Source: Prorocentrum cordatum (Eukaryota; Sar; Dinophyceae; Prorocentrales; Prorocentraceae). From it: 64,000 bases of DNA. Below, in pieces: positions 14,322-56,358 of the stretch. The DNA is taken from the NCBI GenBank assembly GCA_963575745.1, contig CAUYUJ010020170.1, positions 1,280,325 through 1,344,324 on the forward strand, written 5' to 3'. The position numbers and the translations under genes were made by a program. Numbering within the stretch: the first letter of the stretch is position 1; each line of letters opens with the position of its first letter. The notes under the pieces were generated by a model, which searched no databases, was not told the origin of the DNA, and saw nothing but the letters and a program-made list of their open reading frames with translations.

Positions 14322-14338
14322 AGCCATTTTGGCTCAAG
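14322..14338 (+). other. Relict dinoflagellate spliced-leader sequence
   Basis: AGCCATTTTGGCTCAAG matches the last 17 bases of the conserved 22-base dinoflagellate spliced leader exactly. It lies 67 bases before the ATG at 14405. A leader copy in genomic DNA is the known mark of a trans-spliced mRNA that was reverse-transcribed and reinserted. The five 5'-most leader bases do not match. Confidence 0.8.
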
Positions 14339-14404: not shown

Positions 14405-15703
14405 ATGTGCAACGCAGAGGCCGCTCAGGCACAGCGCCCCGACAGCGGCGGCCCCCCCACGGCCACGAAGGAAGTGTTGAGGCTGGAGAAGAAGTTGCGC
14501 GAGATGCAGAAGATCGAGGGCCTCGTGAACGCCGGCGAGCGGTCCGATCGAAATGGGTTCGAAAGCAACACGTTGCACGAACAGGATTTCTCCGAGCTCC
14601 GCGCGGATCTCTCGGGTCGGCACTGGGCCCCCCTGGCGGCTCTTTGGCGCCGCCCCCGTCGCGCTCCGCGCACCAGGGAGGGCGTGCCACGCATGGAAGA
14701 CATGGCGAGAGCAGAATCAACTGATCGACCGTGGTGAAGCTGCTGCGATACCCCCTCCTTGGCGCGCGGGGCGCGCCAGGGGCAGCGCCAGAGGCGCTGC
14801 CAGGGGGGCCAGCGCCGATCCGAGAAAGCCGCGCGGACCTCCGAGAAGGTATGTGAATGTTGTTTTCTGTTCCTCTCTGGGTACGGAACTAGAGGGCAGG
14901 AAGAGCGATGGTAGTTCCTGCCCATCTTGAGAAGGGCTGACTGTCGGTGTCGCCGCGGATCTTCTCCGTTCCTGGCCAAACGGCTTACCCAGCAGCGGCC
15001 GCTGTCGGTCTTGAACAACACCTGTTGTTTGGCGACGTGCTCGTTTTCTTCGACAAACCTTGCGGCTTGCCAAGGCGAGCGCGTGGACCCGCAGCAGCGG
15101 CAAAAGTTGGGGCGGAGGGCAGAGGTCGAGGCCAAGTTGGCGGAGGCCCTGCGGCTCACGGCCTGCGACGACACGACGACGGTGGCGTCGCACGACGGCT
15201 GCGCCTCCGACGGCTCGCCACCGACGGTGGCGTCCCACGACGGCTGCGCATTCCAGGAGGCAGACGAGCGCACGCAAGTCGACGACGCGGCGCACAGGCG
15301 GTGGGACGAGTCCGCCCGCGAGCAGCGGCAGCTGGCGTGCCCCGGCTGGCAGCAGGCGACCGCTGTGGGTGGGCAGGCGGCCCTGGCGGGCGGCCCGGCG
15401 CCCATGGTGCAGTGCTTGGTGCCCGTGCAGGCGCAGCAGGGCGCGCAACAGCTCTTCTGCGGGGCCGTCTGGGCGTGTGGCGCCTGGGTGCCGCAGGCGC
15501 TCATGTCGCCGATGGGCGCGAGCCAGGCGTTCGTGGTGGTGCAGCAGGCCACCCCGCAGGCGGCCTCGGGGGCCGGCCCGTGGCAGGCGGGCGCGGCGCA
15601 CCCGCGCGGCGGCGCCCCGCCCCAGGCCCAGCGCAGGGGAGGAGAAGGTGCCGATGCCGCTGGCCCTCCCTCGTCAACTCTGGCGGATGGTGAGGGTGGG
15701 TGA
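14405..15703 (+). CDS. PYM/eIF2A-C-terminal-like helical protein, two exons
   Basis: Exon 1 (14405-14534) starts MCNAEAAQAQRPDSGG and encodes the basic helix KEVLRLEKKLREMQKIEG. Exon 2 (15075-15703) continues ERVDPQQRQKLGRRAEVEAK and LAEALRL. Joined, this looks like the Lys/Arg-rich C-terminal helical segment of PYM (Mago-Y14 partner, ribosome-associated) and of eIF2A; that assignment is by motif only. The rest of exon 2 is Ala/Gln/Gly-rich and contains a tandem TVASHDGCA. The intron (14535-15074, 540 bp) has a GC donor and AG acceptor with GGCGAGCG repeated across both sites, so frame is kept. The model gives about 252 residues. A GT donor just before the stop (near 15690) could extend the gene. 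A spliced-leader relict upstream points to an mRNA-derived copy. Confidence 0.6.
14555..14877. mobile_element. Foldback element family A, two broken copies in an intron
   Basis: Arms resembling CTCCGCGCGGATTT and GGATCGGCGCTGG, a CCCTGGCGGC-type core, and the inverted arm CCAGCGCCGATCCGAGAAA are present. The first copy (to about 14705) lacks its right arm and the second (about 14750-14877) lacks most of its left arm. The right tail GAATGTTGTTTTCTGTTCCT matches other family A tails. Confidence 0.7.
14878..15072. mobile_element. Dispersed element family C, copy 1
   Basis: It carries CTGTCGGTGTCGCCGCGGAT, AGCAGCGGCCGCTGTCGGTC and ACAACACCTGTTGTT. The same pieces in the same order occur at 38383-38590. 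In both places the element fills an intron up to the 3' splice site. Confidence 0.7.
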
Positions 15704-16061: not shown

Positions 16062-18412
16062 ATGGAGCGCAGCAGCGGCAGCAGCAGCAGCAGCATGAGT
16101 AGCATGACGGGCCACAACTCGGGATCGGAAATCTGCACGGTTGCAGCTCAATTCAACACTCATGCCTGCCGCACGAGACCTTCGGGGCCGGCTGCACGCG
16201 ATCGCCAGGGGACACCTCCGCGCTGAATGCTCTCCTCTTCACACAGCCTCACCTCAGCGGTATGGGCATCGTTCGGCCCCCCAACCAGCAGCGCCACCGC
16301 GGGTGCAGCGGCAGGGCGGGCGACCGCGAGGCGGCGGTGCAGCAGAACAACTGCCAGCGCCTGCTGGAGGGCCTCGACGCCGGCGGCCCGGCGCGGGCCA
16401 GCGCCCTGGCCAGCCTGCTCGGCGAGGTGCGGCGCCTCGCCGCGGACCCCGCCGGGTGCCGCGTGGTGCAGCGCGCCCTGGAGGTTGCCGACCACGTTTC
16501 CGCGGCGGAGCTCGTCCAGGACCTGCACGGCCACGTGCGCGACCTCATCTCGGCGGCGAGCGAGGGGGGCAAGTGAGAGAAGGCGAAGGCCTGCTCGGAA
16601 GGCGGCGGGACTCCTCAGAGGTCCTCGCGCCCTCTGAGAAGTTCCTGTGCCCGCGAGGGCGGCGCAGAAGACTTCTCAGAAGGCCAGGGGACTTTGAGCC
16701 GTCTGGGGAGCCCTTCTCCTTCTCACTTCCCCCCCCGGCTCGCCGCCGATCGTCCGCTCGCCGCACGGCAACTACGTGGTGCAGAAGGTGGTGGAGGTCT
16801 TGGCGCCTGGGCAGGTGGACTTCGTCGCGCGCGAGCTGCGCGGCTGCGCCGCCGAGACGGCACGACACCGATACGGCTGCCGGGTGGTCATCCGGCTCAT
16901 CGAGCACTGCGCGGACACGCTCGCCAACGCGGGGAGGGCTGCGCTCGTAGAGGAGCTGCTGGCGGAGGTGGCCGGCCTCTGCCGCCACGCGCTCGGGCAT
17001 CACGTGATCAAGGCCATCGTGGAACACGCCCACCCCGTGCAGCAGCAGAGGGTGCTCGCCTTCCTCTGCGCCGGGGCCGCCGACAAAGCCCGGAACCACT
17101 ACCACTGCTACGTCGTCGAGGCTGCCCTGGACATTTGCGCGGCCGAGCACGCGGAGCCCTTGGCCCTCGCGCTGGTCGGAAGCACGCAGGCGAACGTGAT
17201 CTCGCTGTCCCAGGCCCGCTGCGGCTGCAACGTCCTGCGCGCCCTGCTGAGGCTCGAAGGAGACAAAGATGCAGAAGCATCGACTTCGGAGTTCCGCACG
17301 GATGTCCTGGATCGGCGTTCAGTCCCGTGCCATTCGTCCAGTGCTGCCATCATGGGCATCCAGAAGGGCCGTCATAGTTAGGCACATCGCATTCCCTTCG
17401 AGACCGTCAAATAGGCTCGTTTTTGGAAGAAGGGCCGTCATAGGCTATCGCACTCCACAGCACATGCGGAGTCATAGAATTCAGCCTCGGAGGATCTTGG
17501 GCCCGAGGCTGACAAATGCGTGAGGGTCAAAGGGACAGCGAGGTGGTTGTGCCCTTTTGCTGGTATATTGCTCTGTGTCGGAGCTCCTTCTCCTCCTCCT
17601 CCTCCTCCTCCTCCTCCTCCTCCTCCGCGCCTTTCTATGCACCGTCTGTCCTGGCGACTGTTCACTTTCCGGGATGCTACGTTGGGCTGCCTAGCAGGAC
17701 GTTCCCCCGGGGCGTGTTGCCGCGAGGTGGCGGCAGCAGCGGCGGCACACCTCGCTTGGGGACCGCCTTCAATGCGTGGCATGCTCTCCCCCTCACTGGT
17801 GCGCGGCGCCGCCAGGGGGTCCCAGCGCCGACCCAAGGAAGCCGCGCGGAGCTCCGATAACTTGTGCACACGGTCGGGAACTTTGGGATAGTTTGTCGCT
17901 CCGTACGTTCTGGCCTACGCTAATTAGATCGGCCCGTGGCCCGGACCTTTCGACTCGGCGCCTGCGCTTCCGCTCGCGCCCGCGAGGAAAAAGTTCTGGC
18001 CCACCACGCTTCGGCGCGACACGCTTGCCGCCGCCCACTCCCAAAGCGGCAGCGTCTCGAGTTCTTCCGAGCCCCCTGCCCGGCGGAGCGGAGCGACGCG
18101 CCCTTGCAGGGCACGGCGTGCCGCCGGGCTGCTGGGGCAGCACGCGGACAAGCAGCTGCTCCCGACCGCATGCTGATTCGCTCTTAGGGGGCCACATGCG
18201 AGCCCCACCCCCGCCCCTCCCACTCAGAAGTCGTTGGGGGGGGGGCAGGGGTACGGCTCGCATGTGGCCCCCCAGAGTCCTCCCTCTCCCTCCAGAGGCG
18301 CCCCGGCGCCGCTTCCCAGAAGGCCCGCGCGGTGCTCGCCACGGCAGCCCACCGCCTGCGGCAGAGCCCGGACGGCCAGCGCCTGCTGAGGGACGCGGGG
18401 CTGCCGGCCTGA
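16062..18412 (+). CDS. Pumilio/PUF-family RNA-binding protein
   Basis: PUF proteins bind single-stranded mRNA 3'UTRs through tandem three-helix repeats and control decay or translation in the cytoplasm. Modelled exons: 16062-16139 (MERSSGSSSSSMSSMTGHNS), 16247-16568, 16711-17261, 18296-18412; about 355 residues. Six repeat cores are visible: DPAGCRVVQRALE, SPHGNYVVQKVVE, HRYGCRVVIRLIEH, HALGHHVIKAIVEH, YHCYVVEAALD and QARCGCNVLRALLRL. NYVVQ matches a canonical PUF recognition helix; the others are diverged. The last exon encodes the helix KARAVLATAAHRLRQSPDGQ and ends LRDAGLPA. Donors proposed are GT, GC and GA, all with AG acceptors, and frame is continuous. Exons 2-4 are well supported by protein pattern; exon 1 and the exact 16569-16710 borders are less sure. 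Canonical PUF domains have eight repeats; here six are clear. Confidence 0.8.
16571..16728. mobile_element. Foldback element family F in a PUF intron
   Basis: AAGTGAGAGAAGG at the left end and CCTTCTCCTTCTCACTT at the right end form terminal inverted repeats. Internal CTCAGAAGG/CTTCTGAGAAG-like pieces recur. The element nearly equals the intron between PUF exons 2 and 3. Related copies lie at 25010-25130, 34525-34632 and 34873-34990. Confidence 0.65.
17262..17330 (+). mobile_element. Family A left arm at the start of the last PUF intron
   Basis: From the proposed GA donor the sequence reads like the left end of family A: GACAAAGATGCAGAAGCATC, TTCGGAGTTCCGCACGGATG, then GGATCGGCGTTCAG. The right arm of a family A copy lies 450 bases further on (17765-17880) in the same intron, so the element was split or two fragments remain. 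Confidence 0.6.
17585..17625. repeat. (CTC)n microsatellite inside the last PUF intron
   Basis: About forty bases of CTC triplets, ending in CGCGCC. Confidence 0.9.
17765..17880 (+). mobile_element. Family A right half
   Basis: GCGGCGCCGCCAGGGGGTCC, CAGCGCCGACCCAAGGAAGC, then CGCGCGGAGCTCCGATAACT: core and inverted right arm of family A, within the 1034-bp last PUF intron. Confidence 0.7.
17985..18100. repeat. Dispersed repeat E, copy 2
   Basis: It contains TTCTGGCCCACCACGCTTCG and GCGCGACACGCTTGCC, the inverse of AGCGTGTCGCGCCGAAGCGT near 51317. Confidence 0.55.
18187..18272. repeat. Perfect 18-bp inverted repeat near a 3' splice site
   Basis: GGGGGCCACATGCGAGCC (18187-18204) and its exact complement GGCTCGCATGTGGCCCCC (18255-18272) flank a 50-base loop. 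The structure ends 23 bases before the last PUF exon. If it folds in pre-mRNA it would present the acceptor right after a stem. Confidence 0.75.
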
Positions 18413-20640
18413 GGAGCGGCCTGCCGCCTTGGCCCGGCTCGGCCTGGCAGCTGGGAGCGAGGGCGCCCTGTCCTCTCCCCGCACCTCTGCCCATGACCAG
18501 AGAGCGGTGCCAGTGCCCGCCCTGTCCTGGGAGAGTGCAGCAGCGACGCAGGCCGAGCGCAGCGACTCAGCGCCAAGCGTGCTCTCTCGGTCTTGTCGTT
18601 GCGCAAACCGGCAGAGTTCCGGCCAGCATTTCGAAGAGTTGCGGCACCCTCGTTTGGCTTCGGGTCGGACGAGGGGGGGGGGGGGTCGCGCAGGGGGGCG
18701 GTGTTCGGACCGATTCTCCATGCAGCTCCCCAGACTTCCAGCATTGTGATTCTCTCGTTCTGGGCATGTTTCCGGGATGTCGGCTTCTTACCGACCCTTG
18801 GGACCATCAAGAGCTGATCGTGGACAAACGACGGCTTTCAGGGGAGGGGTCCGGAGCCCTGGGGCCGAGAGCTGAAAACACAGTTCGGGGGATGTCTGGG
18901 TGGTTTCGGCCAGCCGGTTTTCCTCGATGCACAGGTGCATCCAGCGCCGTGAGGCGCCGGGAAAGCCAGCTGAGCGACGGAAGAAGACGCGGTCGTTTGC
19001 GCCGACATTGGCGCGCAAGCTGCCCGCGCAAGTTCGCGCGTGCGCGCCCTCGTCTCCAGTGTAGCATGCCTTGCTGGCGGCCCGCGTACGCCGCGGCGTA
19101 AGGCCGCTGCGTCATCTCGCGTAAGGCCTGTCTCTTTTCGTCGCTCGGCTGTGCAAGCCGCGTCGCTGAGCCGCCCTCGGCTGTGCGAGATGCCCCCCGC
19201 TTCGTCGGGCCCCGTGGGAGGGCCGACGGGCCACGCCACTGGACACGTCGGCGCACCCAGGCCTGGTGATGCCCTCCCAGCACAGTTCTAGTCTCCAGAT
19301 GCCCTCTCTCCCCTCGCTCGTCCTCCCCTGCCCCCCTCTGACACTGGCAACAGTCGACGAGCCAAGAGACGGCAAAAGTCCGCGCGGATTTCTTGGGTCG
19401 GCGCCTGAGATCCCCTGGCGGCACCTCCGGCGCCGCCCCGCGGCGCGCTCCGCGCGCCAGGGAGGGGGTTCAGCGTAGGTCAAATCCGCGCGGACCGTCA
19501 AAAGTTGATGTTTATGCAGTTTTTTATTCCTCTACTCCCGTCCTCCCCCGCCCCCTCTGGCACTGGCAATGAGGGCTCTGAAGATCGCAGCCTATCCACA
19601 GGAAATAAAATCAAGCAGCGAAAGGAAAACGCGCAGCTGGTTAGGTGCCCCCTTCCCCCCCCCCCCAAGAACACCATCGCAGCCCGAGACTGGTACCCCC
19701 CGTGGAGCACCCCGGACTCCTCGAGACCTCTCCCTCTTCTCCTCCTCCTCCTCAGCTTTCAAAATGTGGCCCTCGCCTTAGCGCCGCGCACATTCGTTAA
19801 CACAAAAAGCTACAAGAGCTTTGCGGATGGAGGGCGGTCCGTTTTCAAAATGTGGTTCTCGCCTCAGTGTTGCTCATGTTCTTTTTTTAAGTCTGCAAGA
19901 GCTTCATGGATGGAGGGCGGCTCCTTTTCAAAATGTGGTTCTTGCTTTAGCGCCTGGCATAGTCGTCTTCAGAGTTCGCAGCAGCTTCAAGAGTTCTCAT
20001 GGTTAGCAGCCCAGAAACCGTGTTTGGGTACGATGTCAGAATGCCAGGGCGCAACAGTCACGTTGTTTTGGGGTGTTTAAGTCCCAGGGACGGCGTTCTG
20101 GCACGATTCAAGACCGTCAAGACGTAGCAGTAGCGGTGATTCGCGGCTCCCAGGACTGGCGTTCTGGTGCAATTCCGGATTTTCAAACGTTTGTCTGTCT
20201 TTCAACAGGGGCATTTCCTTGAATGAAAATGAATCCGTGTAGGAGCCAACGAAGAGGTAATTTGGAGGGAGGGTTTATTGCAGTATCGTTGATGTGTCTT
20301 GGAATTACATTGGTCCTTCTCCTCCTCCTCCTCCTTCTCCGCCTCCTTCTCGAGGCTCGAGGCTACGCGCTGGTTCCTCCTGTCGGGGCGAAGCCCTCGC
20401 CCCCGCCCCTCGTCGCCCCAGCAGCAGAGCATCGCTGGCGGGGGGCGGGCGCTGTAACAGGCGGCGGCGCCACAACCAAAAGGTGCGGCGGCCCCAGGCA
20501 GGAGTGAGACCGACGGACCGGGACGACACGGGAAGACACAGCAAGAAAAGGAGGAGGAGGAGGAGCGAGAGAGGCTCCTTCTCCTCCTCCTCCTCCGCCT
20601 CCTCCTCCTCCTCCTGTCTTCCTTAGGGTTCAACCCGGGG
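18413..20640. other. No gene assigned; one foldback element and CT-rich pieces
   Basis: Long ORFs exist on both strands but none shows a consistent protein pattern. A copy of family A lies at 19365-19550. TTTTCAAAATGTGG recurs three times (19757, 19841, 19925) within about 170 bases, marking a short tandem repeat of about 84 bp at 19740-19960. CTC-rich patches lie near 20318 and 20578. Confidence 0.45.
19365..19550 (+). mobile_element. Foldback element family A, copy at 19.4 kb
   Basis: Left arm GTCCGCGCGGATTTCTTGGG, core with CGCGCTCCGCGCGCCAGGGA, right arm CAAATCCGCGCGGACCGTCA, and tail GTTTATGCAGTTTTTTATTC. Both arms and the tail are intact, but no flanking exons are recognised. Confidence 0.75.
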
Positions 20641-25130: not shown

Positions 25131-25439
25131 CCTTATGCCCGCCGCCAAATACGCACGAACTTGCGGAGCGTCGCGCAGAGTTCCTGAGTCTGCGCTGGAA
25201 CCCCCGTGCGGCGCCTCCAGCCGGTCGTGGGACCCAGGGAGCCTCCCAGAGGCCGAAAAAACGATGGAACACCTCCGTCTTGATTGGAGAGGCCTGCGCC
25301 AGTCCGCCGACCCCCGAGGAGGGCAGGAGCAGGCACGAGAAAGCCGACGACAAGGACCAGGAGAAGGAGTGAGAGGAGACGAGGGAGGAGGAGGAGGAGG
25401 ATCTGGGCCTCCTCGATGGGGTCCGAGTAGATGGGGTCG

Positions 25440-25774: not shown

Positions 25775-25997
25775 TGCAGCGCCCAGATCTCAGCCGCCGG
25801 GGTGCGCTTCCGCTCGCCGAGCTGACGCCCCGGGCCCGCCGGGGGGGGCTGCCCGCCGCCTCGATGGCATGGCGCCGAAGGGCGGTGGCGCGGCCCGGCC
25901 CGGGCCGCTGCCGGCGTGCGGCTTCCTCGTGCAGGCCTCGAAGGCCTCGCAGCAGGGCGGGGGGGGGGGCTCAGAAGGGCAAACATTTACCCCAGTC

Positions 25998-26049: not shown

Positions 26050-26071
26050 TCCGTTGCCATTTTGGCTCAAG
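26050..26071 (+). other. Relict dinoflagellate spliced leader, near full length
   Basis: TCCGTTGCCATTTTGGCTCA followed by AG matches the 22-base dinoflagellate spliced leader at 21 positions. The single change is T for A at leader position 6. It lies 102 bases before the ATG at 26174. By established precedent this marks integration of a trans-spliced mRNA. Confidence 0.88.
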
Positions 26072-28554: not shown

Positions 28555-28632
28555 TCAACAGCATCATCAACAACAACAACAGCAACAGCAACAGCAACAG
28601 CAACAACACCAACAACAACAATAACAACAAAA
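28555..28632. repeat. CAA/CAG microsatellite
   Basis: Short triplet tract of CAA, CAG and CAT ending in CAATAACAACAAAAGG. Confidence 0.9.
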
Positions 28633-28639
28633 GGCACTG

Positions 28640-28805
28640 CCATGATTTTTCTGAGATCCGCACGGGTTTCGTGGATCGGCGCTGGCCAACCCCTGGCGGC
28701 GCGCCACTCCGCGCGCAAGGGAGGGGGGGGCCCAGCGCCGATCCAAGAAATCCGCGCGACCCTCGAAGAAAGCATGTGAATGCCATTGGCTGCTCTTCTA
28801 GTCCA
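28640..28805 (+). mobile_element. Foldback element family A, copy at 28.7 kb
   Basis: Left arm GATCCGCACGGGTTTCGTGG, ATCGGCGCTGGCC, core CTGGCGGCGCGCCACTCCGC, right arm CAGCGCCGATCCAAGAAATC, tail CATGTGAATGCCATTGGCTG. It ends in CTTCTAG, a good 3' splice-site shape, though no exon is recognised after it. Confidence 0.75.
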
Positions 28806-31440: not shown

Positions 31441-32290
31441 GGAGGGCCCAGCCTACCTGCTTTTAGAACACTCGCATCTCGGGCGTAGGCCAAATATCGT
31501 TCTGACGTTCTAGCTAAAAGCGTCTACGGACACAGTGGGTGCTGTTACGTCGACATACGCATTCGGGCTGGATACGTCTACAAAGCGGCACGGTGGCGGA
31601 TAGACCATATGGCCGTTGCGTTCGACGCAGTACAAGGTCAGGGAAATGTAGATCCGTCTACGGTATGTGGTACCCGAGGAGGAGTTACTTGTTGTTCCTG
31701 CGGGATTCAGCCACCATGGGTTCCCCAGCGTGTGAGCAGCCCGATTAGCAGAGATCCCCGACGTGGCGCCGCACAGGTCGCAGCAAGAAAAATCAAGTCA
31801 AAGGCCGTGGAGACCACACCACCACACCGCAAGCCCAAACCCCCGACGTTTTGATTTGGTCTAGACGTCGACTCCCAGGTGTCTCGACCCATTCCCCAGG
31901 ACCGGTTTTCTGTCTTCAGTAGTTGCTGACAGTCCTAGGGCCTTGCGATGGCCCCCAGGGGCCGAAAACAGCAACAAGAAACAACGTCAGTCGTAATGAC
32001 GTCTCGGCGCAAAGGGGTCCCGGTGGAGAGACCGCACCAGAGGGGGGGAGGAGGAGGTGGCGGAGGAGGCGGCGGGGAAGCGGCGCGAAAGGGCGGCACG
32101 CTGCCTATCTCGGTGGAGAAGCGCGCCTTGGGCAGCGCCGCCCCGCCCGCGCGGCCGCGGCCTCGCTGCCCAGCGCTCTTCTGCTGTTCCTGCCCCCTCC
32201 TCCTGTTCCTGCCTCCTCGTCCACCTCGCCTCCCTTCCCGTCCTCCCCGCCGCCCTCCTCGGATTGTCCCTCCTCGCCCCGATCTTCTCC
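31441..32290. other. No gene assigned
   Basis: Mixed sequence. GTCTACGG occurs at 31526 and 31656, suggesting a small old duplication. From 32045 on it is GGA- and then CCT-rich. Confidence 0.35.
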
Positions 32291-33725: not shown

Positions 33726-33826
33726 TTTTGGATTCCCTTCGGGGATCATCCGTTAAAATTGTAACGATACAGAGAAGACTAGCATGGCCCCTGCGCAAGG
33801 ATGACACGCACAAATCGAGAAGTGTA
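33726..33826 (+). ncRNA. U6: U6 spliceosomal snRNA copy, probably retro-inserted
   Basis: A 5' stem-loop (GATTCCCTTCGGGGATC) is followed by the conserved core: ACAGAGA at 33769-33775, which pairs with the 5' splice site, the AGC triad at 33781-33783, and GGCCCCTGCGCAAGGATGAC with ACGC after it. Compared with the conserved eukaryotic U6 core there are changes near TTGTAACG and GACTAGC. The 3' end runs into TATACTCC with no T-run, so a Pol III terminator is missing. A 17-base direct repeat (TACTCCTCCTCCCCTTC) flanks it exactly, at 33709-33725 and 33827-33843. That is what a retroposed snRNA with target-site duplication looks like. The CTCC-rich surroundings also contain TACTCCTCCTCCCC at 33693, so chance or local duplication cannot be excluded. 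Confidence 0.85.
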
Positions 33827-33859
33827 TACTCCTCCTCCCCTTCCTCCGATGAGGCGTGG

Positions 33860-35505: not shown

Positions 35506-35507
35506 CC

Positions 35508-36300
35508 CTTAGCTTAGCTGGGCTTACCTCATCTTAGCTTAGCCTAGCTCAACTTAGCTTAGCTTAGCTTCATCTTAGCTTCGCGTAGCTGTAGCTTAGC
35601 TTAGCTTAGTTTAGCTCAACTTAGCTTAGCCCAGCTCAGCTTAGCTTAGTTTAACGCAGCGCAGCATTAGCATAGCACAGCATAGTATAGCATATCATAG
35701 CATAATATAGCATAACATAGCGCAGTATAACATAGCGCAGCATAGCATGTAATAGCATAGCATAGCGCAGCATAGCATAGCATACCATAGCATATCTTAG
35801 CATAGCACAGCGCAGCATAGCATAGCATAACATAGCATATCATCGCATCGTATAACGCAGCATGGCATAGCATAGCATAGCGCAGCATGGCATCGTATAT
35901 CATAGCATAGCATGGCGCAGCATTTCATAGCATAGCATAGCGCAACATAACATGTCATTGCATAGCCTAGCATAGTATATCATAGCGCAGCATAGCATAG
36001 CATGGCATAGCATGGCATAGCATAGCGCAGCATAGCATAGCATAGCATAGCACAGCGCAGCATAGCATAGCATAGCCTAGCGTAGCATAGCGCAGCCTAG
36101 CATACCCTACCCTAGCATAGCCTGGCATAGCGTAGCATAGCGCAGCATTGCGCTGCATAGCATAGCAAATCATAGCATAACATAGTATAGCATAGCATCA
36201 ACGCAAAGGCAAAGCAACAGCAGCAACAGCAAATCAAAGCACAAGCAACGCAAAGCAAATCAAAGCAAAAGCAAAAGCAAAAGCAAAGCACAGCAAACTC
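35508..36300. repeat. Pentamer array (AGCTT, then AGCAT, then GCAAA)
   Basis: About 790 bases of pentanucleotides that change along the array: TTAGC/AGCTT at 35510-35650, CATAG with CGCAG interspersed at 35650-36200, and GCAAA at 36200-36300. Minus-strand ORFs of Met/Leu/Cys/Tyr/Ala repeats are artefacts. Confidence 0.95.
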
Positions 36301-36991: not shown

Positions 36992-37722
36992 AACGGCCGC
37001 GTCGAAGCGTTGGGGACGACCAGCGGCGGCGACGGCGACGCTGGCGAAGAGGCCCGCAGGCGAGCGCGTGACCCCTCCCGCCCACCGCGGCGCGGCGCGC
37101 CCCCAAGCCCCCCCCCCCCCATCCTCGATCCTCCTCTCCCCCCCCTCCTCGATCCCCCTTCCCCCCTCCTCGATCCCCCCCCTCCTCCTCTCCCCCCCTC
37201 GATCCCCCCTCCTCGATTCCCCCCCCTCCTCCCCCTCCTCGATTCCCCCCTGGGTCCTCGATCTCTCTTTCTCCCTCCCTCTTTCCCCCACTCACCGCGG
37301 CGCCACTACGGGGCGGGGAGCGCCCCCGGCAGGCAAGCGCGTGACCATCGTGGCGGGCGTCTGCGGCAACGCCCGCGCCCTCTGCACCGCGCTCACCACG
37401 CTGCTCGGCACCGGCGGCACGGTGCACCCGCGCGGGGCGCAGAGGGCCGACGTGGAGGTGCAGGGCGAGCAGGTGTCGAGGAGCAGAAAACGGCATCAAC
37501 ACAAACTTGTGGCGCTCCGCGCGGGTTCCTTGGATCGGCGCTGGGCCCCCCTGGCGGCGCCTCCAGCGCCGCCCCTGGCGCGCTCCGCGCGCCAGGGAGG
37601 GGGGCCCAGCGCGAATCCGAGAAATCCGCTCGGAAATCCAAAAGTTTGTTTATGCCGTTGTTTATTCCTCTGAGGTGGAGCGCGTGGGGAAGGCCCAGCA
37701 AGGGGTTCCGCATCGATTCTAG
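36992..37722 (+). CDS. SUI1-domain (eIF1/DENR-type) protein, 3' exons
   Basis: SUI1 domains act at the 40S ribosomal P-site in start-codon selection (eIF1) or reinitiation (DENR, eIF2D). The exon 37333-37472 encodes KRVTIVAGV, ALCTALTTLLGTGGTVHPRG and ADVEVQGEQ, matching the SUI1 pattern of K-VT-V-G, helix, GG-V, then hydrophobic-QG-[DE]-Q. The last exon 37675-37722 gives VERVGKAQQGVPHRF and stop. The intron between (37473-37674) is one complete foldback element. An upstream intron (37060-37332) has a GC donor with GCAGGCGAGCGCGTGACC at one end and GCAGGCAAGCGCGTGACC at the other. The exon before it (36992-37059) is read as TAASKRWGRP... in frame but is uncertain. N-terminus not found. Confidence 0.65.
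37473..37674 (+). mobile_element. Introner: intact family A foldback element equal to an intron
   Basis: The 202-bp intron is the element. Its left end GAGGAGCAGAAAACGGCATC mirrors the right end, whose complement is CTCAGAGGAATAAACAACGG. Arms with CGCTCCGCGCGGGTT and GATCGGCGCTGGGCC pair with the right half. An inner perfect hairpin CCTGGCGCGC TCCG CGCGCCAGG lies in the middle. AGGTG stands at both exon borders (CAG|GTG and GAG|GTG), as a target-site duplication would. Removing it joins ...VEVQGEQ to VERVGKAQQG in frame. Confidence 0.8.
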
Positions 37723-37742
37723 ATCCTCCTCGAGCGTCGGTG

Positions 37743-37958
37743 TGTCGCCGCGCCGCTTGTTCCGACGCGCGGCCTTCCGTCTTGGGGAGGGCTCCTCGGC
37801 CACCAGGGCAAATTCCGCCTCGGGCGCAGGGCTTGCCGTGGGGTTTGCCGCGGTGCCGGCGTCGTCTACTGGGGCGCGGGACGCAGGACTTGCCGCGGTT
37901 CTGCCGTGGTGTCAGCGTCGTCCATTGGGGCGAGTCGAGAACAAGCGGCGCGGCGACA
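37743..37958. mobile_element. Element D with perfect 20-bp terminal inverted repeats
   Basis: TGTCGCCGCGCCGCTTGTTC (37743-37762) and its exact complement GAACAAGCGGCGCGGCGACA (37939-37958) bound 216 bp. Outside lie near-identical direct repeats, GATCCTCCTCGAGCGTCGG at the left and GATCCTCCTCGATCGTCGA at the right. The inside has a diverged tandem repeat around TTGCCGCGGT. No ORF is inside, so it would be non-autonomous. Confidence 0.7.
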
Positions 37959-38029
37959 GATCCTCCTCGATCGTCGATGTCCTCGATCCCAGACGTCCAG
38001 CAGCGTATTGAACAAATCAAGGCGGCGGT

Positions 38030-38168
38030 TTTCACCCGTTTTCGGCCCACGGGGGCCTTCCTTGGGCCCTGGTATCGCCAAAAATGTGTTCGGGGCCGAA
38101 AAACCGGCCCTGGGGAAGGGGCTGGGGCTTGCGGACCCCGTGTTTAAATCCAAGACATTGGATCTCTC
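38030..38168 (+). repeat. Dispersed repeat B, copy 3
   Basis: TTGGGCCCTGGTATCGCCAA, GGGGCCGAAAAACCGGCCCT, GGGGAAGGGGCTGGGG, CCAAGACATTGGATCTCTC: same order as the copies at 27.6 and 55.1 kb. Confidence 0.7.
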
Positions 38169-38230
38169 TCTGGGGTCCTCCTCGACCCTCGACCCTCCTC
38201 CATCGCGACCGCCCGTCGTGACCGCCGAAG

Positions 38231-38718
38231 GCCCTGTCGCAGTTGGGTTGCTTGCGCGGGCTGGCCGGCGAGAAGGCTGGCGGCGCGGTGGCATTGGTGG
38301 CGGAGCGGGACTGCGGCTACGACGAGTTCCTCCGCCGCACCGAGCCCCGCAGCAAGGCCCGGCACGCCAAGGCTCTGGAAGGATCGAAAGGGGCACGGAG
38401 AGAGTGGTGGCGAAGACCAGCAGCAGTTACCGCCCACCTTGAGCAAGACTCGCTGTCGGTGTCGCCACGGATTTGGTGCTGTTGGGGCAGAGAGTGGCCT
38501 GCTCAACAGCGGCCGCTGTCGGTCTTGGACAGTATTCGTTGTTGAGCATCGTTCCAGTTGTTTCCGTACCGCTCTCGAGCGTGCGAAAAGGCGCAGGGGC
38601 CAGACGCCAAGCTCCCGGAGCCGCCAGAGGACGCCCCGTGCCGCAAGTGGCACGGCTTCTGGCTCTACTGCACCGGCGCATGCGAGCAGGTGGTCGACGA
38701 TGGCGTGTGGCTGGAGGC
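38231..38718 (+). CDS. Two exons of an unrecognised protein
   Basis: Exon a (38231 to about 38380) follows an AG acceptor and encodes ALSQLGCLRGLAGEKAGGAV, ALVAERDCGYDEFLRRTEPR and SKARHAKALE. Exon b (38591 to about 38718) encodes AQGPDAKLPEPPEDAPCRKW and HGFWLYCTGACEQVVDDGVW followed by LEA. Both have G/C third positions and normal protein composition, and the second has four cysteines. No family is recognised. The intron between is a family C element. Its 5' border is unclear: the natural GA donor after CTGGAAG would shift frame by one relative to exon b, so either the donor is unusual or there is an indel. Neither gene end was found; downstream sequence is TA-rich microsatellite. Confidence 0.45.
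38381..38590. mobile_element. Dispersed element family C, copy 2, filling an intron
   Basis: CGCTGTCGGTGTCGCCACGG, CAACAGCGGCCGCTGTCGGT, then TTGGACAGTATTCGTTGTTG. It matches 14878-15072. The left end GGCACGGAGAGAG and the right end TTTCCGTACCGCTCTCGAGC are roughly inverted. Confidence 0.65.
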
Positions 38719-38734
38719 TCCGCCACACTATATC

Positions 38735-38832
38735 AATAAACATATCCATCTATATATAGATATATATATATATACACATACATACATATATACACATATT
38801 TGTATACATGCATATATTCACATGTACAAGAC
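38735..38832. repeat. TA/TACA microsatellite
   Basis: ATATAT and ATACAT runs. Confidence 0.9.
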
Positions 38833-48319: not shown

Positions 48320-48465
48320 AGAATGTACTCAAGCTCCCCTCCCCCGCTGGCGGCGCCTTCGCCGCCGAAGGCGCCGCCAGGGGGGACCAGCGCGGATCCA
48401 AGAAATCCGCGCGGAGCTCCGAGAGTTTGCCTGCACGTGTGCCGCTTGCTGCTCCTCCGGCACAG
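48320..48465 (+). mobile_element. Foldback element family A, copy at 48.3 kb
   Basis: Core GCTGGCGGCGCCTTCGCCGC, right arm CAGCGCGGATCCAAGAAATC and GCGCGGAGCTCCGAGAGTTT, tail ending TCCGGCACAG at a good 3' splice site. The left arm is shortened. Confidence 0.7.
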
Positions 48466-48699: not shown

Positions 48700-49602
48700 T
48701 TATGACCTCGAGAATCAATCCGTCTTGTGATTCACCTTTTGCAGATCCGAACCCCGAAAATCCATCGAAACTGCATTTCAGATTTCACCCTTTGCCCTCC
48801 ACCCAAAGAAAATTCTCGGACATCGGCGATGCGGCTCGATGTGCAGCCCGAGCTTCTCCACGCGGACGGCGCCGATGCATCGCCGACGTCGCCCAGGCAT
48901 CGCTGGGGTATCTGCGATGGCATTCCCAGATATCCGGGGATGCCCAGAGGCAGAGATCTCTGGTGCTCACGGCTCCGGGTCCCCTTCTGATGGTCCTGGG
49001 GCTCGATGGCGGGCCGAGATCGAGAACCGCAGGATTTGCGGTTGATCGGAAATTTTGTGCAGAGTATGCGTAAAGATAAGGAATGATTCTTCCCTGACGC
49101 TGGTGTCCGTCAGGAGCCGACACGGTGCAGGCAGCGCTCTTGGCCCCTCCCTTGGGGCTGATGTTGCGAGGATGTACCGAGCGAGGGCGCTAGTTTGAGA
49201 TTTGGCCCGGATTATGTCAGATTCGCTGGGGACGATGCAGGAAGCGCAGTTGTTGGCCCCACTGCATCGCGCGCAACGGTGAGCTCCACGGAGACTTCCC
49301 CCAAAAAGGAAGCCCAGATCGTCGGAGAGATGGGCTGGCGATGCGGCGCGGCCATGCGACCCCGCCTGCTCGGTCCCCACCCTGTGGGATGCCCCCCCAG
49401 AGTCGGGGGCTGCGGAAGGCGTCCCTGCCCCAAGGTGCCCCCAGCGTCTCGGCCCGTCCTGGAGCCCCTGGGCCCCCATGGGCCTCGTCCGGGGGTGCTG
49501 GGGGGGCCGTGCGGGCCTCCCTGGAGAAGTGGGGCGGGGCCGGGACGGGGATGAATAACTCGTCCCCGAGCCTTCTGGAGCGCTCCCAGAGCAGTCGGGG
49601 GT
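48700..49602. other. No gene assigned
   Basis: A repeat-H patch (48820-48905), then mixed sequence. No coding frame is convincing. Confidence 0.35.
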
Positions 49603-49766
49603 GGATAGACCTCCTACCCTGACACGTCGATTAAGGAATTGGCCGTTTTCGGTTCGAGAGAGGGCGTCGCGGCCGTCATTTCTGCGGGTCCAGGTCCGTC
49701 GGTTTCGGTCCCAGGCCGTTTTCACTAAGGGGAGGTTTACTAAAGGGAGGTTTGTCCACCGCCGGA
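49603..49766 (+). repeat. Dispersed repeat I, copy 1
   Basis: AGACCTCCTACCCTGACACG, GAGGGCGTCGCGGCCGTCAT, GTCCAGGTCCGTCGGTTTCG, ACTAAAGGGAGGTTTGTCCA. Roughly 90 percent identical by eye to 56196-56358. It stops about 20 bases before a zinc-finger exon. Confidence 0.8.
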
Positions 49767-50512: not shown

Positions 50513-53500
50513 GGTGCTGCAGTGGCAGCGCGACGCGGGCGCCGCCCGCGGCGGGGAGCGGCCGCGGCCCGCCCCGGGGCCGGCGGCGAGCGGGCCCCAG
50601 CGGGTGGCGGCCCAGGACGGGCAGCTCGTCTGCGAGGAGCCCGGCGGCGCGGAAGGTCTGGGGGGAACGAACACCTCGGCATCGCTCGGACGTGCGCACT
50701 TTTCCTTCGGCGAGGGCCCTCGAGGAGCATCCTTGATCATGTGGCGAAGAAGCCACGCGCGAAGCCGAAAAGAGCACAGGGAATGGACGTCCGAGCGATG
50801 GCCAGACACTGACGTGAGCATAAAAGCTCGGAGGTCCGCGCGGATGTCTCGGATCCGCGCTGGATGCCCCCTCCCGGGCGCGCAGAGCTCGCCAGGGGCG
50901 GCGCCGGAGGCGCCGCCGGGGGGCCCCAGCGCCGTTCCGAGAGGTCCGCGCAGACCTCCGAGTTGTCATGTTTATGTCATTCTTGGTTCCCCTAATGTCG
51001 GAGCATGCGCTGCCAGCCAAATGGATCGAACCACCACGAAGGCCATCTCAGACCCCAGAGGGTGAAAGTGGCCAGGGGCGGAGGCGAGGGCATGTGTACG
51101 CATGTCCCCAGACACCCCACGGCCCCCAGCCCCGTCTAGGCCACCGAAAGCCTCAAGATGACGGTCGGGAACTGTTGCACAGCGTGTCGCGGCGGCGTCC
51201 CTGGCGACACGCTGCGCCTTGCAAACACCTGCTAGCGTGTCGCTCTGCTCCGCGCGGCGGGAGGCTGGGAAACGGTCGAGACGGACGTTGACGCTGAGGG
51301 ACGGCGACGCGCTTAGCGTGTCGCGCCGAAGCGTGGTGGGCCAGAACCAGCGGCGTGACACGCTGACAACAAGTTCCTGGCCGTAGCCCTCAATTTTTGT
51401 AGGGAGGGCCACCCCCCGTCCTCTCTCAGGGGGGAACAGCGGCGGCGAACAGATCGTAGTCTTCCCCCCTAGGCATTGTGACCCCTGGCCGGCGTTTGAG
51501 TTGCTGCTGCCTGTTACGATTTGCGTGATGTCCAGAGCCGTGGCTCAAGCGTTCTTGGGCCGCTGGAACATCATTATATTGTTCTTGGCCCCAGCGCTTC
51601 TTGTATAGCTCTTGGCTTGGACTCACGTTGAAGAGTGGCCCTTCGCCGGAGTGCGGCGTTGGTGCGGGCCCTCCCAGATCTCCGACGACATGATGTAATT
51701 ATTCAACCCTGGCCTTGTTCCTCGGCTTCGGCCCCTTGGGCCCGCTGTCAGGCCTCAGGGCCATCCAAAACGAGTCCTGGGCGAAACATTGCCCCTAGGG
51801 AAGGGGTCGGGATCTCTGAGGCCTCCAGGGCAACGATAGGGGGGGATGCGCACGGGGGATGCATCAACCTCGAATGGTCGATACATCGAATATGCATCGT
51901 TGATATCAGGGCGATGAATCGACGATGTCTTGACGATGCATGGGAGATGGATCGGCCATGCGAGGTCGATGCATCCCCTCTTACGCCTATCCCCCACTAT
52001 CGCTGCCCCTCAGGGCCGCGCTGGTGAAAGCCCACTGGTCCGATGCTGGTTTCGGGGGCCTCCTTCGGGCCCACTGTAACGGGTCCGTGCTGCTCTGGTC
52101 TCCATCTCGGCCCTACTTCGACTCGAGCTCGACTCGAGTCCGATTCAAGTCCGACTCCAGCTCTAGTTCGACTCCAGTTCGGCTCGACCCGTGGAGCCCT
52201 TTGTTGGGGGGCCCCTCCCTGCGCGGGCACGGCCTTCGGAGGAGTGCGGCGCCACCTTCGGGCAGCGGCGCACGCTCGAGCTGCACCGCCGGCAGCACCG
52301 CGCGGAGCGGCAGCAGGAGCCTCTCTCGGCGCTCTCGGCCCCTCTTGGCCCCAGACGTCGAGAGACAGACGTCGAGAGACAACAGAGAAGGGCACGAGCT
52401 GCTTTACCGAGCAGTTCCCCAGCCCGCTGCTGGATCCAGAGCATGAGCCCTGACCACGAGGAGAGTTCCCGAGAGGAGCGTCGGGTGGCATCCAGTTGGG
52501 CTCCGCCTTTTCATGTTGGCTGATGTCGAGGCGCTGGGACCCCCCCCGTCGGCGCCGCCCCTGGCGCGCCCTGCACGCCAAGGAGGGAGGTCCAGCGCCG
52601 ATCCGGGAAATCCGCGCGGAACTCCGAAAGTTCATGTTTGTGGCATTTCAGATTGGAGCTGGCTGGGGGTCTGAGGTGGCCCAGCATTGGTTCTGGCGAG
52701 CAGGAAGGGTGGGCGAGGTTCGTGGAAAAAAAGATGGTTGCCATTTCCTGCCTGCGGGGGCCATTTTGGAGCCCCAGATCGTCAAAAGCAGATCTGGGAT
52801 GAAAAAGTAGCCCACCTTCACCCAAGGGGGGGTCTGGGGATCGATTTTGACCGGATTTGATCTGACCCCCCACTGCCCTCCTGACCGATTTTCTCAGGGC
52901 CCAAATCCCGGTGCAGATATCGCTGGGTCCCGCAGGCGGTTGAGCTGGCGGCGGGGCGCGTGCGAAGCGAGATGAGCGCAGAGGCAGAGGAAGGCGGGAG
53001 GAGAGGGGGGGGGGAGGGCCGCGGGACGACCCGCGCACCCTCAGAACGTAAAGCGCGACGGGATGTGCCAGAGGCAGGCTCACGTAGCCGCCTCTGTCAG
53101 TGCGGGGGGCAGGTCAGGACCGCAACTCCAAATGAGTCGTGCGACGAGGCCCCTTTCCCGACATCCGACCTCGTGATTTTTGTCATGGAGTGGCTCCGCT
53201 GAGATCCGGGCGTTGTTCTTCTGTTAGCAATTGGCGTTTTCGCACGGAGCTTCTGGCTTGGAACCCTCGCAGATCGATCCGACCCGAGAGATACAGCAGA
53301 AAGATTGGCTCCAGGGCTCCAGTCGTGATGTTCCGCGATGTTGCACTGTGTTTCGCGACGTCGGATCTCGGGGTCCCCAGAGGTCTGGATGGACCCTTGC
53401 CCCAGGGCTGGCTTATCGTCCCCTGTCGTTTTGTGACGGTCTTTGAGCCTCGGCGACGGCCCCAGCGAGAATGTCTGAATTCCCCGACGATCAACGATCG

Positions 53501-54701: not shown

Positions 54702-55000
54702 ACTCCTGGCGCTACGACGGGGCCTACAACTCCAGGGAGGCGGCGCTCGAGGAGGAGCAAAGAACCAAAGCATGGCATAAGCATAAACTTTCTCGGAGCT
54801 CCGCGCGGGTGTCTTGGAGATGGGCGCTGGAGCCCCCGAGGCGGCCTCCGAGCAATCATGTGTATATGCCGTTTTGGGTTCCTCTGGAGGAGAGCGCATG
54901 GGGACTCCTGGGCAACACCGCGGGTGCCGCCGCGGACGACGACGGCCGCGCGCCCCTCCGCGTCTCCTTTGGCGGCTGGCCCGCTCGTCGGCAGTCGGTG
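54702..55000 (+). CDS. Two exons around a foldback intron, unrecognised protein
   Basis: After a C-rich tract and AG acceptor, exon a (54702-54754) encodes SWRYDGAYNSREAALEE. Exon b (54890 to about 55000) encodes ESAWGLLGNTAGAAADDDGR and APLRVSFGGW. The intron 54755-54889 is a family A element with GA donor, AG acceptor and GAG on both sides of both borders. It is 135 bp long, a multiple of three without stops, so the unspliced frame also stays open. No family is recognised. It could be further exons of the zinc-finger gene upstream. Outer borders are unknown; exon b may end at a GT near 54989. Confidence 0.5.
54755..54889 (+). mobile_element. Introner: family A element equal to a 135-bp intron
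   Basis: It starts GAGCAAAGAACCAAAGCATG, has left arm TTTCTCGGAGCTCCGCGCGG and GGGCGCTGGAGCC, a short inverse arm GGCGGCCTCCGAGCAATCAT, and tail TATATGCCGTTTTGGGTTCC with TCTGGAG at the end. Start and tail match the intron element at 37473-37674. Confidence 0.75.
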
Positions 55001-55064: not shown

Positions 55065-55210
55065 TGCCACTTTCGGCCTCTGGAGGCCCTCGCTGGGCCC
55101 CGGCACCGCCGAAACGATTCGAGAAGAAAAGCCGGTCCTGGGGAAAGGGTCGGGGTTTCCGGGGGGCCCGCATTGGACAAATCAAGGCATCGGATCTTTG
55201 GATCAGCCGC
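55065..55210 (+). repeat. Dispersed repeat B, copy 5
   Basis: CTCGCTGGGCCCCGGCACCG, GAAAAGCCGGTCCTGGGGAA, AAATCAAGGCATCGGATCTT. Closest to copy 1. Confidence 0.7.
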
Positions 55211-55859: not shown

Positions 55860-56195
55860 TATCACGCAGGTTGCACCACACGGATTGCTTCGCATTGCGC
55901 CATCCTGATTGGGCCATACGGATTGATATACACACGTTGCGCCATATAGATTGCTCTATGTATATTGCACCACGCAGGTGGCAGCACATCACAGGTTGCA
56001 CCACCTAGATTGCACCAGATCGATGGCTTCACAATCTGATTGCACCGCGCGGACAACGACAAGACAACCAGGCCACAGGGCAGCAGACAACCACGGTACA
56101 ACCGCGGGACGAGGACGGCACAACCACAGGGCAACGGCGGGACAACCGTGGGAGGGTCGCGGCGGGCACGGGTGGGGGACTGTCGGGGGAGGACA
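55860..56195. repeat. TTGCACCACA-type short repeats
   Basis: TTGCACCACACGGATTG and variants recur irregularly to about 56040, followed by GGGACAACC/CAGGGCAAC units akin to the 12-bp satellite. A similar inverse patch lies at 59700-60000. Confidence 0.7.
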
Positions 56196-56358
56196 GACCT
56201 CCTACCCTGACACGTCGATTAAAGAATTCGCTGTTTTCGGTTCGCGAGAGGGCGTCGCGGCTGTCATTTTTGCGGGTCCAGGTCCGTCGGTTTCGATCCC
56301 AGGCCGTTTTCACTGAAGGGAGGTCTACTAAAGGGAGGTTTGTCCACCGCCGAGACTG
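56196..56358 (+). repeat. Dispersed repeat I, copy 2
   Basis: Near-identical to 49603-49766, with a handful of substitutions. Confidence 0.8.

Follow-up and report, generated by a model that had tools for sequence, protein, structure and literature searches.

A probable introner in Prorocentrum cordatum: a palindromic element with terminal inverted repeats coincides with one intron of a SUI1-domain gene

Introduction

Introners that carry terminal inverted repeats (TIRs) and target duplications are known from dinoflagellates and other algae, in the accounts on which we draw here (PMC9860276, PMC7789003, PMC10666404; review PMC11453091). In the dinoflagellate Symbiodinium microadriaticum, according to Gozashti et al. 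(2022, PMC9860276), they have TIRs and a short target duplication that provides the donor site. The introner elements of P. cordatum are reported to be introns with an inverted repeat at either end, accompanied by direct repeats of 3-5 nt (Dougan et al. 2023, PMC10666404). According to the latter source, the P. cordatum genome has a G+C content of 59.7%, uses 51.4% GC and 23.8% GA donors, and has introns enriched in introner elements. The window, by which we mean the whole 64-kb stretch of DNA analysed here, resembles that genome in its frequent GC/GA donors and in its base composition (55-66% G+C in 4-kb steps).

This study concerns a 202-bp GT-AG intron of a SUI1-domain gene in the window (37473..37674, + strand) that shares the TIRs and short border repeats of these introners and, if its repeat is a target duplication, their way of obtaining the donor site. 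We conclude that it is very probably an introner: a short, non-autonomous TIR DNA element that inserted at a coding AGG of the gene and that the spliceosome removes as an intron. The evidence comes from blastn and profile searches, RNA folding and comparison with related proteins.

Results

The intron begins with GTG and ends with AG. A copy of AGGTG stands at each border: the 5' copy (37471..37475) gives the exon-final AG and the donor GT, and the 3' copy (37673..37677) gives the acceptor AG. Directly inside these copies lie two inverted arms, the left at 37476..37496 (+) and the right at 37652..37672 (-), which match at 15 of 21 positions without gaps. The similarity extends well beyond the arms: the intron and its reverse complement are 73% alike across 197 alignment columns, making it a near full-length palindrome. 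An earlier sequence-only reading had given these coordinates for the intron, with AGGTG at both exon borders, and had stated that the intron begins and ends with TIRs; these statements agree with what is found. On the + strand the right arm is T-rich and may serve as the polypyrimidine tract of the intron. In RNA folding, 37471-37677 gives a structure that runs from one end to the other, at -141 kcal/mol, compared with a mean of -85.7 kcal/mol for shuffled sequences (z -11.4; 0 of 200 shuffles as good). Two traits of a MITE, TIRs and short length, are thus present, in the form of the 15/21 arm match and the 202-bp length.

The gene around this element is assembled from six exons on the + strand, running from 25869 to beyond 38591. 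Exon 1 (25869..25943, MAPKGGGAARPGPLPACGFLVQASK) has borders picked to fit the relatives and splice rules, and exon 2 (32092..32131, GGTLPISVEKRALG, last codon split) has borders picked to fit the relatives. Exon 3 (37333..37472), which contains KRVTIVAG and ends in VEVQGEQ, is placed by the relatives and by its SUI1 match. The relatives also place exon 4 (37675..37692), which spans 18 bp and encodes VERVGK, and exon 5 (38231..38371), which runs from ALSQLGCLRG to RHAK. Exon 6 (38591..38740, with an arbitrary end) starts AQGPDAKLPEPPEDAPCRKWHGFW and follows the C-terminus of relative P0003 and relative P0013. Joined, exons 1-5 form a single open frame of 138 codons. As placed, all introns of the gene are GC-AG except 37473-37674, which is GT-AG; their border repeats are, in order, AAGG, GGCA, AGGTG, GAAGGCCC and AAGGC. 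Third-position GC is 1.0 in exon 3, 0.63 in the element and 0.94 in exon 5.

The SUI1 domain is split a second time, 18 bp past the element, by a 538-bp GC-AG intron (37693..38230, +) that the sequence-only reading missed; it is placed by the relatives and has the 8-bp direct repeat GAAGGCCC at its borders. A gene model ending at a stop near 37720 was rejected, as the relatives show this further intron there. The Pfam SUI1 score (cutoff 25.5 bits) rises from 19.8 bits unspliced to 25.4 bits with the element removed and to 26.3 bits with the next intron also removed. A search of the PDB with the SUI1 fragment gave no match.

Several other features lie within the introns of this gene. No inverted repeat was seen at the borders of the 538-bp intron. 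Inside it, perfect 20-nt inverted arms (37743-37762 and 37939-37958) are flanked by similar stretches beginning GATCCTCCTCGA, and perhaps mark a nested element. A further part of the same intron (38040-38134) resembles 55071-55162, just downstream of a second candidate gene discussed below (71.6% over 95 columns). The 219-bp intron before exon 6 may be repeat-derived, since its middle (38425-38531) matches 14913-15017, beside another copy of the element family (74%, 109 columns). Within the long intron that separates exon 2 from exon 3 lie a U6 spliceosomal RNA gene (33731-33836, +; Rfam RF00026, 95.8 bits) and, by eye, a long degenerate array of short AGCTT- and AGCAT-like repeats (35507-36210). 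Exact matches to a 15-nt sequence that we take to be the dinoflagellate spliced-leader core occur in the window at 14324 and 26057 (+). The match at 26057 lies in intron 1 of the gene and looks like a longer leader, and this stretch is perhaps a retroposed mRNA.

Related proteins were collected in steps. A two-exon peptide search returned one protein (P0001) alone, a three-exon query returned 9 of 260 candidates, and a profile of those nine, scored against the 8000 candidates sharing most words, returned 15 proteins (P0001-P0015). Removal of the element joins VEVQGEQ to VERVGK, and 13 of the 15 relatives (P0002-P0014) are continuous across this GEQ|VER junction, a count that leaves out P0001, which stops at GEQ, and P0015, which does not cover the junction. 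Because these 13 read straight across, the intron borders at 37473 and 37674 are supported by homology. Together with the gain from 19.8 to 25.4 bits, this upholds the earlier statement that removing the element restores the SUI1 frame.

The continuous relatives are of several kinds. P0002 and P0003 are named gene models, both from Symbiodinium. P0004, P0009, P0010 and P0013 come from contigs shorter than 4 kb and may be transcripts. The other seven (P0005-P0008, P0011, P0012 and P0014) are open reading frames whose longest contigs measure 5 to 517 kb, five of them at least 28 kb, and which we take to be unspliced genomic sequence that reads through the site. P0005, P0006, P0007, P0011 and P0012 have unlike tails after a KERWxAG stretch, P0007 and P0012 having the same tail, and unlike tails are what is expected of unspliced genomic reading frames. 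P0014 diverges at an earlier point, following CVRGG; P0008 comes to its end shortly afterwards.

The element belongs to a dispersed family. A blastn search with 37473-37674 finds ten other loci in the window, mostly broken, at E values of 1.1e-8 or better, in keeping with the earlier description of it as dispersed. The best three E values are 3e-34, 5e-32 and 7e-30, and the best alignments reach 80.6% over 160, 84.2% over 120 and 82.7% over 127 columns. A profile built from 37473-37674 and seven other copies places twelve other loci above the inclusion threshold, of which seven had served to build it; as profile matches to its own window seeds are circular, copies are counted by blastn. Three of the copies found by both methods lie in unannotated surroundings: 19348..19534 (+), 28623..28801 (+) and 50803..50994 (-). 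Partial copies, also found by both, lie at 14740..14876 (-), 14563..14689 (+), 52519..52654 (+), 48329..48457 (-), 17789..17868 (-) and 25150..25221 (+). Two of the 11 family loci, 37473-37674 included, are intron-like, and the other nine sit among unannotated genes. A scan for the core of the element that allowed up to 2 mismatches finds the 37473-37674 copy and two others in the window; the same scan of viral_contigs found none. From the divergence of its copies, the family as a whole was probably not amplified very recently.

The ends of the family agree closely with the ends of the intron. Other copies align up to 5 nt from the left end (the 14.8 kb copy) and 3 nt from the right end (the 19.5 kb copy), and the family core, placed by hand, leaves only 5 + 4 nt of the intron uncovered; in the table of family termini, also hand-placed, the rows for the 19k left, 28k, 48k and 50.9k ends are off by one to four bases. 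At the other family copies that were inspected by eye, no clear target-site duplication was seen.

The second intron-like locus (54755..54889, +), found by blastn and profile, is a 135-bp copy that retains both ends and has an inner deletion. It sits between a stretch ending CTCGAGGAG and one beginning GAGAGCGC, has AG|G at both borders and carries a 7-bp direct repeat, GGAGGAG. Third-position GC, in one frame, is 0.95 and 0.84 in the flanks and 0.60 inside. We regard it as a candidate GA-AG introner. Its fold is only mildly better than those of shuffled sequences (z -2.06), of which 4 in 200 do as well. Its length is a multiple of three and its likely frame has no stop, so retention would also be tolerated. 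No relatives of the candidate exons flanking it were found, no Pfam domain was found in the flanking peptides, and the PDB gave two weak, unconvincing matches for this second gene (E 0.085 and 9.7). In both two-ended copies, neither splice dinucleotide need belong to the element.

How much weight the border repeats can bear depends on what splice sites share by chance. Among random AG|G donor/acceptor pairs from the window (AGG[TCA] with AGG, 200,000 draws), 23% share at least 5 bp, 4.7% at least 7 bp and 2.7% at least 8 bp; the local values are 23%, 4.7% and 3.1%. As 23% of such pairs share at least 5 bp, AGGTG by itself says little for a target-site duplication. For the third MITE trait, a target duplication, the candidates are two repeats, AGGTG and GGAGGAG, whose chances given AG|G are 23% and 4.7%. 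Stronger points are that other copies align to within 5 nt (left) and 3 nt (right) of borders confirmed by the relatives, and that the second two-ended copy is arranged in the same way. The sequence-only reading had proposed that element ends, splice sites and target-site duplication coincide: the first two do, to within the 5 + 4 nt outside the core, and the duplication is the weak member of the three.

Paired repeats and arms are not rare in the window, which calls for caution. Searching it for 5-bp repeats that adjoin 21-nt arms matching at 15 or more positions gave 45 hits (35 without low-complexity arms), as against 0, 1, 2 and 3 in four Markov-1 simulations; the element itself stands at the threshold score of 15 and is not among the top scorers. 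Another TIR element is present as two 171-bp copies (49595-49765 and 56183-56353) that are 93% identical, lie in unannotated surroundings and have the exact 5-bp direct repeats AGCAG and GACTG, neither of which is an AG|G splice border; we count them in favour of the introner reading.

The relative that stops at the junction deserves separate attention. P0001 is identical to P0002 and P0003 (the S. microadriaticum and the CCMP2456 protein) over 41 residues, VISG to VEVQGEQ, after which it reads ADSDKCCDFVEPET to its end, so that homology is lost exactly at the GEQ junction; its contigs measure up to 88,636 bp. The simplest reading suggests an exon of a Symbiodinium-like genome, followed by a GC-starting intron at exactly the position of the element, with a sequence that, as its translation indicates, would be unrelated. 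The DNA encoding P0001 was sought in viral_contigs and genome_contigs and was not found there. The sequence-only reading had named such an intron, in the same position in a distant dinoflagellate with unrelated sequence, as evidence that would refute it, and had proposed comparison with orthologues that lack the intron. The comparison divides: seven unspliced-looking reading frames run through the site, and P0001 stops at it. This leaves the identity of element and intron standing and weakens a simple, lineage-specific gain. In our view, P0001 bears on the timing of the gain and not on what the element is.

The coincidence of position can be given an approximate expectation. Ten AGG sites occur in exons 1-5, whose four inner junctions fall on AGG in three cases. 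If four introns here and two in the Symbiodinium-like gene are drawn at random over ten sites, at least one is shared in 67% of draws (51-79% for 14 to 8 sites), a rough figure, since one of the four junctions does not lie on AGG and the two Symbiodinium introns are deduced from a single protein, P0001. As most random draws share a site, the common position says little for common descent, and a leaning towards AGG in both lineages would suffice to account for it.

Discussion

The case for an introner rests jointly on the family, the palindrome and splice borders checked by homology, and these support the reading that element and intron are one. What the DNA and protein sequences show directly is the element and its family, the match of element and intron, and relatives that continue across the junction. 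The most economical account of how such an insertion would become an intron involves: entry of a non-autonomous TIR element at a coding AGG site by means of a transposase encoded elsewhere; a staggered cut at CAG|GTG that would duplicate about 5 bp, AGGTG; and division of the splice sites between the two copies. The left AGGTG would become the exon-final AG and the donor GT, and the right would supply the acceptor AG and the first bases of the next exon. What the element itself would then add is limited to the T-rich arm ahead of the acceptor and a hairpin, which may bring the splice sites together. Splicing of 37473-37674 in the host would restore the original mRNA. Since the element is palindromic and its reverse arm is also T-/C-rich (TTTTCTGCTCCTC in the reverse complement), either orientation might splice.

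The position of the intron could be older than the element. An ancestor shared with Symbiodinium would have had an intron after GEQ, its sequence would have been turned over or replaced here, and the read-through lineages would have lost it, for example by gene retroposition. We consider this history possible and on balance doubtful. The departure of P0001 at the identical junction, after 41 residues identical to two Symbiodinium proteins, speaks for it, and the reference list of PMC10666404 includes a title on gene retroposition in Symbiodinium. It is opposed by the seven unspliced-looking reading frames that run through the site and by the rough calculation in which 67% of random AGG draws share a position. 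Moreover, with only 5 + 4 nt outside the core, it is unlikely that the element landed in an older intron, unless deletion removed the remainder of that intron. An old position and the introner proposed here are not fully exclusive. A related account, in which a TIR element entered a pre-existing ordinary intron that deletion later trimmed to the element, so that the match of the ends is secondary, draws on the composite adjacent 538-bp intron with its inner perfect 20-nt arms. It needs two independent deletions ending at the element ends, and the same again at 54755-54889, and is very improbable.

Equally remote is spread of the intron as RNA by reverse splicing and not as a DNA transposon. 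The direct repeats beyond AGG are short, which speaks for it, and reverse splicing is discussed for fungal introners in PMC9860276; the inverted terminal repeats and near full palindrome suit a DNA element better. The locus could also be a broken gene copy with a transposon insertion and no intron at all. Dinoflagellate genes are often multicopy, which we count in favour of this account. The single open frame of 138 codons across exons 1-5, the third-position GC of 1.0 in exon 3 and 0.94 in exon 5, and intron borders that, although chosen with the relatives in view, agree with the GT/GC-AG usage that has been reported in dinoflagellates make it very improbable. The earlier proposal that the intron was gained by insertion of a DNA-transposon-like element keeps its central parts, namely the identity of element and intron and the family, and the second two-ended copy adds to it; the target-site duplication and a simple, lineage-specific gain are weaker.

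A broader version of the introner reading can be put forward tentatively, and taken as a whole we think it unlikely. A palindromic introner without splice sites of its own would be usable in either orientation, insertion at AGG would recur at the same place in the same gene in distant dinoflagellates, and the GT, GC and GA donors would mirror the base that follows the target AGG. The intron position shared with P0001 is, to us, the most interesting feature of the locus, as this apparent same-position intron in a Symbiodinium-like genome offers a testable case of recurrent gain at one site versus an old shared intron. More generally, the locus provides a case in which element, intron and protein-checked splice junction coincide, and it illustrates that a border repeat is weak evidence where splice rules already force AG|G.

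Comparison with described systems places the locus among the introners, with differences of detail. The S. microadriaticum introners, as described in PMC9860276, have a 4-bp duplication and a 3' splice site of their own; here, in contrast, the repeat contains both splice dinucleotides, and the palindrome takes in nearly the whole element. In the P. cordatum account the introner elements are defined by pattern, without a named sequence family, so that the likeness to them is one of description (PMC10666404). The introner elements of Amoebophrya are reported to carry inverted repeats 8-20 nt long, to have their borders covered by direct repeats of 3-5 nt and to form a hairpin that joins the exon ends, all of which recalls the present element; they are reported mostly among non-canonical introns with varied borders, whereas 37473-37674 is GT-AG (Farhat et al. 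2021, PMC7789003). In Florenciella, an unrelated alga to which the likeness is again by description, neither splice site lies in the introner and both come from the insertion site, as here (PMC9860276, Fig. 2E legend). Polarella glacialis is likewise a dinoflagellate, with many introner families (Roy et al. 2023, as cited in PMC11453091). On these likenesses, drawn from the descriptions of published introners and not from their sequences, we file 37473-37674 with the known introners.
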